Origin: Gammaproteobacteria bacterium
Lineage (GTDB): Bacteria; Pseudomonadota; Gammaproteobacteria; Pseudomonadales; Pseudohongiellaceae
NCBI GenBank assembly: GCA_002711845.1
Contig: PASF01000002.1
Span: 410,224 to 474,223, forward strand
Direction of reading: 5' to 3'
Length of the DNA: 64,000 bases
Shown here: piece after piece, positions 10,935 through 13,330 of the stretch
Position numbering within the stretch: position 1 is the stretch's first letter
Layout of the letters: every line of letters starts with the position of its first letter
Program-made: the position numbers and the translations under genes
Notes under the pieces: model-generated
Told to the model about the DNA's origin: nothing
Database searches by the model: none
What the model saw: only the letters and a program-made list of their open reading frames with translations

Positions 10935-11768
10935 CTAGCGCCTCAGCAGCTCCAGGTCGATGGTTTTCAGTAACAGTGTCAGGCTCAGGTCAGGAATATC
11001 CTGAGCCGGAAACCGCTCCGCAAGCCCGGCGCAGATGTCGGCGAAAGGGTTTCCTGCGCGCAATGCGCTCAGAAAACAGTGCATGTGAGCATTGATACGC
11101 TGGAACTGCATGCGATGCTGTACCCGACGGATCAGGTAAAAATTTCCCTGCGCCCGTGCCGTCGGGCTTGCGCGCTCGACCCCGAACGGTACCTCGCCTG
11201 GTTGTGCCTGGTCGCTGGCCAGAAATTGCTGCATGGCGGCCCAATACTTCTCCAGATCGAACTCACTGTGCATCAGCGCCCAGTCGTCACGGACCGGCCA
11301 GCGGGTCGTTGGCCATTGCCCGGGGGGCAGCTGCTGCAGGTCTGCCAATGTGTAGGCGTTTTGATCAGCGCGGTCAAAAAGCGTAATCAGCAACGTTTCC
11401 AGTTCTATGATGTCGAGCATGGCCGGCAGTTTGCCGAACTGGGGATGCTGACTGGCAAAGTCATGCAGGTTTTCGCCCAGCAGGCCCATGGGGCCGGGGC
11501 GTGGTGGATGCTGGGCCAGATAGGCCAGCCACAGGTGCGTATACACGGCGTCACCCAGCGTGTGATACAGAATGGGGTAGAGTTCGGCGGAAATATTGAT
11601 CAGCCGCTGATGATAGGCGTTATTGTAGATGCCCAGCGCGTCCACCTGATCCAGCTCACGGTGGGGCGCAAACATGTCACGGATGTCCTTGCTGCTGTCC
11701 CGCAGGTCCTGGGGTTTGGTGATCCAGTCCCAGAAAGCCTGTTGCTCGTCTTCCCAGCGCATGCTCAT
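10935..11768 (-). CDS. DUF2063 partner protein of the MNIO/bufferin operon
   Basis: A 277-residue protein of the DUF2063 (HvfC/BufC/MbnC-like) family. The N-terminal half with IYNNAYHQRLINISAELYPI, LGDA and the L-G-E-N motif is typical, and this domain class partners DUF692 oxidases and binds the precursor leader. Its ATG overlaps the stop of the MNIO gene by 4 bases (ATGA), so the two are translationally coupled. By family knowledge it forms a heterodimer with the oxidase and delivers the precursor; this is inferred here, not shown. Confidence 0.88.
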   Translation of the reverse strand: MSMRWEDEQQAFWDWITKPQDLRDSSKDIRDMFAPHRELDQVDALGIYNNAYHQRLINISAELYPILYHTLGDAVYTHLWLAYLAQHPPRPGPMGLLGENLHDFASQHPQFGKLPAMLDIIELETLLITLFDRADQNAYTLADLQQLPPGQWPTTRWPVRDDWALMHSEFDLEKYWAAMQQFLASDQAQPGEVPFGVERASPTARAQGNFYLIRRVQHRMQFQRINAHMHCFLSALRAGNPFADICAGLAERFPAQDIPDLSLTLLLKTIDLELLRR

Positions 11769-12598
11769 GCCCGCTGCGGTGGCGCGGTTCCGGCCAGTGC
11801 CGCCTGCTGCAGGCGGCGAGCCTGATCCAGCTCGTGCATCAACTCGGTAAACGCTGGTATTTGATCGTCTCGCTCCAGCAGCGTGGCCACGGCACCGGTG
11901 TGTTTGCAGGCTTCGCTGTACAAGGCCCAGACATCGTCACTGACAGCCTGGTCATGGGTGTCAATGATGTGGCTGACATTGTGCGTGTGTCCGGCCAGAT
12001 GAAATTGTTGCACGCAGTCGGGACGGATCGCCCGGATCTGTGTCAGCGGGTCCAGGCCCAGATTGAAGCTGCTGACATAGACATTGTTCACATCCAGCAG
12101 GATTTTGCAGCCGGTGTTGGCGACCAGGGCGTTGATGAAGTCGGCTTCGGTCATGTCCGATGATTTGAACTGCAGATAGACTGAGGGGTTTTCCAGCACA
12201 ATGTTCTGTTGCAGGGTGTCCTGAATATGCGCGACCTTGCTGCTGACCTGTGCCAGTGTCTGTTTATTGTAGGCGATGGGCAACAGATCATGCGACGTGC
12301 GTCCATGCAGCCCGGTCCAGCACAGATGGTCGGATACCCACGCCGGCTGGCATTCGTGGATCAATTGTTTGAGCTGGTGCAGATAATCGGTGTCGGGCGC
12401 TTCCGCCGAGCCGATATTGAATGACAGGCCATGCAGTACCACCGGGTAGTGCTCACGGACTTGTCGCAGAATGGCCCGGGGCCGGCCTCCGGGCGCAAGA
12501 TAGTTTTCGGTGATCAGCTCAAACCAGTCGACTGCCGGCAGGTGCTCCAGCACATAGTCATAGTGGGGGCTGCGCAGTCCGATTCCGAAACCAAGCAT
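11765..12598 (-). CDS. bufB: DUF692 multinuclear non-heme iron oxidase (MNIO)
   Basis: A 277-residue TIM-barrel MNIO, the RiPP-modifying family that includes MbnB and BufB. Recognisable metal-site and fold motifs are GIGLRSPHYDYVLEH, FELITENYL, WVSDHLCW, VLENPSVYLQF, DVNNVYVSSFNLG, FHLAGHTHN and IDTHDQAV. The iron ligands (His, Glu, Asp) lie in these. A GTG at 12610 is also in frame, but ATG 12598 has GTGGGGA before it. It is 27 bp after the Cys-rich precursor. Family members convert Cys in EGKCG-like motifs to thiooxazoles or related heterocycles; that the precursor here is the substrate is inference from operon structure. Confidence 0.9.
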   Translation of the reverse strand: MLGFGIGLRSPHYDYVLEHLPAVDWFELITENYLAPGGRPRAILRQVREHYPVVLHGLSFNIGSAEAPDTDYLHQLKQLIHECQPAWVSDHLCWTGLHGRTSHDLLPIAYNKQTLAQVSSKVAHIQDTLQQNIVLENPSVYLQFKSSDMTEADFINALVANTGCKILLDVNNVYVSSFNLGLDPLTQIRAIRPDCVQQFHLAGHTHNVSHIIDTHDQAVSDDVWALYSEACKHTGAVATLLERDDQIPAFTELMHELDQARRLQQAALAGTAPPQRA

Positions 12599-12624
12599 GG
12601 CATTCCCCACGGTATCGCTCTGTT

Positions 12625-13146
12625 TTACAGTGATGACAGGACGGTGCCACCAAGCTTTTCACACAACGATTCAGACAGCGCCTTGTCGCCCGTGTAAACA
12701 CCGACGAATCCGATGCCATGACAGGTATTCTGACCCGCACAACTGGCGTTGGCGTTGCCTTTGCAGGCGCTGAGGCCGGCGCAGGTAAACACGTCATTAC
12801 AGTACGCAACATGAACCGCTTCTTCAGCGAGTGTGGTATCCGGCATGGCGGTCAGATGGGCGGCTTCGCTGCCGCCCATGACCTGGCACATGGCAGCGGA
12901 AAAATTGGCATTTCCCGTGCTCACCGCGACAAAACCGACGTCTCCGCTGGGGTTGGCGCCAGCGCCGGCGTCATTGCCCAGCCCTTTGCAGGCGCTCTGG
13001 CCGGCCGCGTGCACGCTCTGACACAGGCTGATCTTGATCGGGGCGTCAGGGTTCTTACTTTCCACGTCAAAGGCAGCCATACCTGATCCGGACATCATCA
13101 GCGCTGCGGCAGCCGATGCCAGGGTAAAACCATCAGTCTTCTTCAT
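12625..13146 (-). CDS. Cys-rich secreted precursor, BufA2/bufferin-like, internally duplicated
   Basis: A 173-residue protein with a signal peptide (KK start, Ala-rich core, GMAA about residues 22-25) and nine cysteines (42, 53, 87, 116, 122, 128, 136, 142, 162). Residues 50-92 and 125-167 align without gaps (19 of 43 identical): SACKG, GFV-V-TG, C and GG recur. In copy 1 the cysteines equivalent to 136 and 142 are Gly61 and Ser67. CKG/CAG/CHG triplets resemble the modification sites of BufA2-type copper-binding bufferins, which act in the periplasm. ATG 13146 follows GGGAG. It is the first gene of the operon with the MNIO and DUF2063 partners. Confidence 0.85.
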   Translation of the reverse strand: MKKTDGFTLASAAAALMMSGSGMAAFDVESKNPDAPIKISLCQSVHAAGQSACKGLGNDAGAGANPSGDVGFVAVSTGNANFSAAMCQVMGGSEAAHLTAMPDTTLAEEAVHVAYCNDVFTCAGLSACKGNANASCAGQNTCHGIGFVGVYTGDKALSESLCEKLGGTVLSSL

Positions 13147-13254
13147 GTGCAATTTCTCCCGGACGCTCGTAGACCGTCAAATGATCGAGCGTCCATTATG
13201 CGCTAATTGTGCCTGAATACGCGCTTAACAGTCGGCGTGTCACCGCGAAAAGCT

Positions 13255-13276: not shown

Positions 13277-13330
13277 TTGACGGACTTTAACGGATTATCT
13301 CACTGTGCGGCCCGAATACAAGCGGCTGCG

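Follow-up and report, generated by a model that had tools for sequence, protein, structure and literature searches.

The window analyzed here (the whole stretch of DNA, 64,000 nucleotides) encodes a bufABC operon whose secreted precursor, BufA, is made of two homologous halves. Among the 29 genomes carrying this type of precursor, the N half has often lost its inner cysteines and has kept its outer cysteine pair and a frame under strong purifying selection, whereas the C half has mostly retained its cysteines. With moderate confidence, we read the product as a copper-buffering RiPP of the bufferin/captophorin type, in which the C half is modified and the N half would be an unmodified, disulfide-stapled scaffold or docking module. 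Bufferins are widespread, and the case bears on how an MNIO and its partner select and process the many cysteines of a secreted substrate. In the open-licence literature we found no report of one-sided cysteine loss in Buf2 precursors, and the word Pseudohongiella is absent from the literature matches listed there.

The three genes form a single minus-strand operon (13146-10935; Table 1), with the precursor gene ahead of those of the MNIO and its partner, as in the Buf2/BufA2 order. The original prediction of a secreted protein of 173 residues and nine cysteines, followed by a DUF692 oxidase and then by a DUF2063 protein overlapping it by four bases, was borne out in both coordinates and domains. 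An artefact of the gene table is ruled out, since reading frames and gene order hold across the 25 operons that were fetched. In 23 of these 25 loci the order hslU-DUF971-ubiE-ubiJ-bufABC is found together, and the remaining two end at contig ends. This constant site beside ubiJ disfavors a recent transfer of the operon inside the family. Within bufABC itself there is no copper gene and no regulator was identified, which counts against our reading.

Table 1. Features of the bufABC region, with positions in the window.
Feature	Position	Strand	Basis or remark
bufA, secreted precursor of bufferin type with two domains (173 aa, 9 Cys)	12625..13146	-	Open reading frame (ATG at 13146, stop ending at 12625), BufA2 profile
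bufB, MNIO (DUF692) maturase	11765..12610	-	PF05114, MNIO_BufB; start is GTG 12610 or ATG 12598
bufC, DUF2063 partner (PME-type 1)	10935..11768	-	PF09836; 4-base overlap with bufB (11765-11768)
BufA signal-like N-terminus, residues 1-25, conserved G6, A10, A13-L16	13072..13146	-	Kept in 28/29 genomes
BufA N half, residues 42-92, Cys slots 1, 3, 6 only (C42, C53, C87)	12871..13023	-	Slot alignment
BufA C half, residues 116-167, six of six Cys slots (C116, C122, C128, C136, C142, C162)	12646..12801	-	Slot alignment
Promoter-like CTTGTAT-N16-GATAATC, upstream of bufA	13293..13322	-	Looser form in 21/25 operons
Direct repeat TTAAG-N5-ATTCAG (13213-13228, 11-bp period), then CATAAT	13195..13228	-	Motif count

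BufB matches PF05114 (E 4e-103) and passes the curated cut-off of NCBIfam MNIO_BufB (NF050167) with 353.2 bits against 310. PMC8888699 (in its available text) names eight iron ligands and a general base in VcMbnB. In alignments to 7dz9, 3bww and 7fc0, the eight ligands are identical to His60 (via 3bww and 7fc0 only), His95, Glu140, Asp173, Asn176, His204, Asp217 and Glu246 of BufB, and the base to Asp248. By alignment, BufB has the iron ligands and the general base of an MNIO. BufC passes the cut-off of PF09836 (DUF2063; 42.6 bits against 27.2). For a putative C-terminal RRE-type domain, it scores below the cut-offs of NGO1945_C (16.7 bits, cut-off 27) and HvfC (23.8 bits, cut-off 142), and the comparison of BufC with solved structures gave only a chance-level match (E 0.067).

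Residues 50-92 and 125-167 of BufA align without gaps over 43 positions with 19 identities, at an offset of 75 that is the best of all offsets tested. The local alignment of one half against the other scores 112, for shuffled sequences averaging 27.1 +/- 5.3 with a maximum of 64 (0 of 5000 as high). The two halves are truly related and derive from an old internal duplication. This confirms the repeat described in the original prediction, which had named unrelated halves as the finding that would speak against it; that outcome did not materialize, as the shuffle test supports homology. The Gly61/Cys136 and Ser67/Cys142 differences that it reported are exactly as claimed. It had overlooked a third one: copy 1 offers no cysteine opposite Cys122 of copy 2 (Ala47/48, with a gap of one residue) and thus holds three of the six motif cysteines (slots 1, 3 and 6). 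The signal-like N-terminus, which we judged by eye as a putative Sec signal peptide with cleavage near GMA-AFD, is oddly conserved, as if the maturation enzymes read it. Its residues were counted in 28 of the 29 genomes because the sequence of G099 lacks the N-terminus at a contig end. PMC12452194, in its available text, proposes that the signal peptide takes part in recognition.

In a profile search of the kind proposed in the original prediction, BufA matches NCBIfam BufA2 (NF050166) in two stretches with an E-value of 5.9e-11, but its 42.4 bits stay under the curated cut-off of 60. None of the 137 genomes of the window's family passes this cut-off, which counts against our reading and also means that the cut-off misses precursors of the Pseudohongiella type. 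Among control genomes, 3 of 14 match at an E-value of 1, none of them above the cut-off, and 0 of 14 at 0.001. The source genome has one MNIO and one BufA2 match (E 1.5e-7). BufA matches no Pfam family at E-values up to 1, and thus not DUF2282 (Buf1), and its profile has no match among solved structures. Its nine cysteines also differ from the six, or twelve when duplicated, of Buf2. The bufferin-type RiPP operon of the original prediction holds, with BufB above its curated cut-off, a DUF2063 partner and a BufA2 match in two stretches. BufA would work like a Buf2 bufferin; judging by the cut-off and the cysteine number, it is a divergent variant rather than a regular member.

Within what was searched, this BufA type was seen only in Pseudohongiella and its family, here called Pseudohongiellaceae, in 29 genomes: all 15 of the window's genus, 13 of a second genus and one of a third. 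They were drawn from the 137 family genomes, 28 by BufA2 match and G008 by protein search. MNIO genes occur in 32 of these 137. Besides the 29, these are G048 and G134, which are without a bufA-type operon and have DUF2282 (Buf1) precursors before the MNIO, and G049. In the latter (L191, 976-3064), a 505-residue MNIO-containing protein is preceded by two small sister peptides sharing LGCPACCSGFDIRFD; these are a possible further MNIO substrate pair. Scanning named genomes yielded 27 loci. Of these, 26 belong to the BufA type and are titled Pseudohongiella or mostly Gammaproteobacteria MAGs; the 27th, from a Myxococcota MAG, matches only weakly (35% over residues 117-169). The records of L167 and L181, titled Rhodoferax and Klebsiella pneumoniae, have bufABC with its neighbors, and these MAG titles look wrong. 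Among 390 sampled genomes of the order, 13 matched a profile of the BufA precursor. Seven are of the window's genus, and the other six are weak matches (E 9e-10 to 1e-4); five of these six genomes have canonical 12-Cys Buf2, and the sixth has a single-domain Buf2. We also observed two-domain 12-Cys Buf2 genes at L149 and L150, where the fetched stretch contains neither an MNIO nor a DUF2063 match; the L150 genome has a second such gene with an MNIO (L151). At L153 and L154, two or three Buf2-like precursor genes, some with extra CKG repeats, stand consecutively before one MNIO.

To compare the halves we use slots C1 to C6, the cysteine positions of the aligned Buf2 domain. In the N half, slots 1 to 6 are kept in 29, 9, 21, 0, 17 and 29 of the 29 genomes, and in the C half in 29, 28, 28, 26, 29 and 29, the C-half assignment of G008 being uncertain because of a 14-residue deletion. 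The inner slots of the C half read CAG or CNT, CKG (one CNG), CAG, and CHG (one CHA). Two-domain Buf2 precursors of other families keep all 12 cysteines in 13 of 13 cases (12 genomes, 8 genera; the rows leave out the multi-repeat precursors of L153 and L154, the two-domain matches of G069 and the second one of G297). The decay part of the earlier suggestion that one half is partly decayed or specialized is upheld by the loss of inner N-half cysteines across the 29 genomes. The loss could tentatively be read as a tuning of dosage, in which fewer modified cysteines are needed, inner cysteines drift off, and the N half is kept for stability and export. The C half does lose inner cysteines occasionally, lacking slot 4 in three genomes, and the 14-residue loss of G008 leaves it two inner cysteines in all; this counts against our reading and suits dosage tuning. 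Still, the C half retains its inner slots in 26-29 of 29 genomes, and the N half in 0-21 of 29. Such a strongly one-sided loss argues against dosage tuning and is in line with our reading of the N half as an unmodified module.

In 8 of the 29 genomes (three of the window's genus, four of the second, one of the third) the N half has lost the loop with all its inner cysteines. The BufA of the window is an intermediate with three N-half cysteines. Slot 5 of the N half varies among close relatives: it is retained as Cys in G011 and is Ser in G000 and G013 and Thr in G006. In a tree of BufB and BufC (26 genomes), placing the eight loop-less genomes in one clade is rejected (AU test, p 3.4e-31). Parsimony gives four loop-loss changes on this tree, bootstraps three to four, and well-supported branches force two. 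With BufB alone, parsimony also gives four and bootstraps three to five, but well-supported branches force only one origin, which counts against repeated loss. Both 26-row trees leave out G003, G004 and G005. Hence, a single origin of the loop loss is rejected on BufB and BufC together, and the well-supported branches of BufB alone are compatible with it.

These losses bear on the other half of the original prediction, that the two halves may bind metal differently. In this view, the N half would not be decaying but would be specialized for another metal or oxidation state, giving two unlike metal sites. The retention of N slot 3 in 21 of 29 genomes and of slot 5 in 17, together with purifying selection on the N half overall (dN/dS 0.043), speaks for such a site. 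We nevertheless think this unlikely, given that 8 of 29 genomes, in at least two places on the BufB and BufC tree, lack the loop and all inner cysteines of the N half and keep the rest of it, and that slot 5 differs among G011, G000, G013 and G006. A loss of modification sites fits better, since inner cysteines are lost, up to the whole loop in eight genomes, and the outer pair and the frame are kept. The suggestion of different metal binding retains as its scope the 21 genomes with N slot 3.

Selection was estimated from Nei-Gojobori counts pooled over 23 close pairs, with ranges from codon bootstraps. The dN/dS is 0.063 (0.029-0.100) in the N loop (residues 43-72) and 0.008 (0-0.028) in the N frame (73-92), with 0.039 in the linker and 0.016 in the C half; the bootstrap range of the C tail is 0.008-0.042. 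In three pairs of loop-less genomes, the N frame still has a dN/dS of 0.027 (2 nonsynonymous and 15 synonymous differences). Moreover, all 29 genomes share P36, K38, C42, G78, S83, C87, G91 and G92, which belong to the N half or to the segment immediately preceding it. Pure decay, in which the N half would be a functionless leftover of the duplication that is being lost, could account for N-half cysteines graded from five to two and for the loop losses, but the constraint on the frame, also in loop-less pairs, and these eight invariant residues make it very improbable.

The AlphaFold model of BufA is of low confidence (mean pLDDT 51.9, pTM 0.52), which weighs against relying on it. For each half it predicts a strand, a loop, a second strand, a helix and a third strand, in that order. 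In this low-confidence model, the first strand has slot 1 at its end, and the helix contains slot 6. The loops holding the inner cysteines (49-69 and 122-146) have pLDDT below 50, and the surrounding frames 55-74 (in blocks of ten). The stretch absent from the eight relatives is the modeled loop, so that its loss would leave the frame.

We favor a course of events in which BufA would be made with a Sec-type signal sequence, with BufC holding the precursor. BufB would oxidize Cys122, Cys128, Cys136 and Cys142 of the C loop, and perhaps also Cys53 of the N half. These inner cysteines would become metal-binding thiooxazoles before Sec export; in the available text of PMC12538549, MNIO modification removes four hydrogens per cysteine. 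The outer pairs 42-87 and 116-162 would close as disulfides, stapling each strand-helix frame, and the exported BufA would buffer a metal, most likely copper, in the periplasm. In Buf1, modification affects the central cysteines, and a disulfide joins the outer two (PMC12452194, available text). That text states the outer disulfide for Buf1 only, and our literature search found no published assignment of the modified cysteines of Buf2; both points count against our reading. PMC13097082, in its available text, models an Asp of the BufA2 maturase in contact with a Lys of the substrate and calls the BufA2 group 'Cys-Lys'. An Asp follows the base in 26 of 26 family BufB examined, which counts for our reading. 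Against it, this Asp is also found in 10 of 13 outgroup MNIOs (two have Ala, one has no match) and is thus not specific to the family, and the Cys-Lys motif, presumed to guide BufA2 maturases, remains only at slot 3 of each BufA half.

Since the duplication, loop cysteines have been disappearing from the N half, completely in some lineages, under strong purifying selection on its frame. As the sites are lost and the frame is kept, the N half, itself unmodified, probably serves as a scaffold or as a docking module, either for BufB/BufC or for the C half. Its function, probably in recognition or stability, is the least certain step of our proposal. A more specific version, which we regard as speculative, is that a duplicated substrate domain has repeatedly evolved into a leader-like domain that is folded and unmodified. 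The N half would retain nothing but its disulfide-stapled frame and would position the C half in the BufB/BufC complex. If true, it would show a core module evolving into a recognition module. The family offers natural variants with two to seven inner cysteines on one scaffold and at one chromosomal place, loop-less N halves included. With them, the identity of the modified cysteines, the outer disulfide and the need for the unmodified half in recognition become directly testable.

Two-domain Buf2 precursors have already been published, and a duplication is therefore nothing new in itself. The one in BufA looks independent of the published 12-Cys duplication and probably arose within the Pseudohongiella-type family. 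In a tree of 53 single domains, the two BufA-type halves form one group (100/98), whereas those of the 12-Cys proteins join single-domain Buf2 (100/98). The spacing between slots 5 and 6 is 20 residues in both BufA-type halves and 13-14 in the others listed. This grouping and the common spacing point to a separate duplication. A common origin with the 12-Cys duplication is disfavored by the domain tree, which has only 48 columns and long branches between groups. Single-domain rows were obtained from 19 of 46 loci (plus strand, fixed Cys pattern); the tree further includes 9 of the 13 outgroup proteins and, from the family, 8 of the 29 genomes, all loop-bearing.

Upstream of bufA, the looser form of the promoter-like element consists of TTGTA, 15-20 bases and ATAATC. 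A TGTGACAnnnTGnCGCA stretch lies upstream in 14 of 25 operons. Of the 12 operons from the window's genus, 11 have the repeat TTMAG-N5-ATTMAG ahead of bufA, as against 0 of 13 others, and with the following YATAAT it occurs a single time in the source genome. This repeat resembles PmrA/QseB-type response-regulator boxes.

Among known systems, the oxazolin and fontiphorin (EGKCG) captophorins described in the available text of PMC13097082 also rely on an MNIO with a DUF2063 partner to process a Cys-rich precursor that is secreted. They differ by EGKCG repeats and by a Phe after the MNIO base, where the window has no EGKCG and an Asp. Buf1 (DUF2282) shares with our reading an outer cysteine pair, inner target cysteines and copper buffering (PMC12452194, available text), but it has four cysteines in one domain, and the BufA of the window is without a DUF2282 match. 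The closest system is Buf2 (BufA2; Buf_6/12Cys; 'Cys-Lys' captophorin), with BufB and a PME-type 1 partner. According to the available text of PMC12452194, 90% of Buf2 have six cysteines and the rest twelve, and the modeled 12-Cys one consists of duplicated domains. Relative to a 12-Cys Buf2, the BufA of the window has nine cysteines (6-11 in its family), a BufA2 score under the cut-off, 20 rather than 13-14 residues between slots 5 and 6, a duplication branch of its own and Cys-Lys at slot 3 only, and no doxX adjoins its operon. It shares with Buf2, as described in the available texts of PMC12452194 and PMC13097082, the bufA-bufB-bufC order, a putative signal sequence, the BufB-class MNIO and the six-Cys domain, which is duplicated in 12-Cys members as it is in the BufA of the window.
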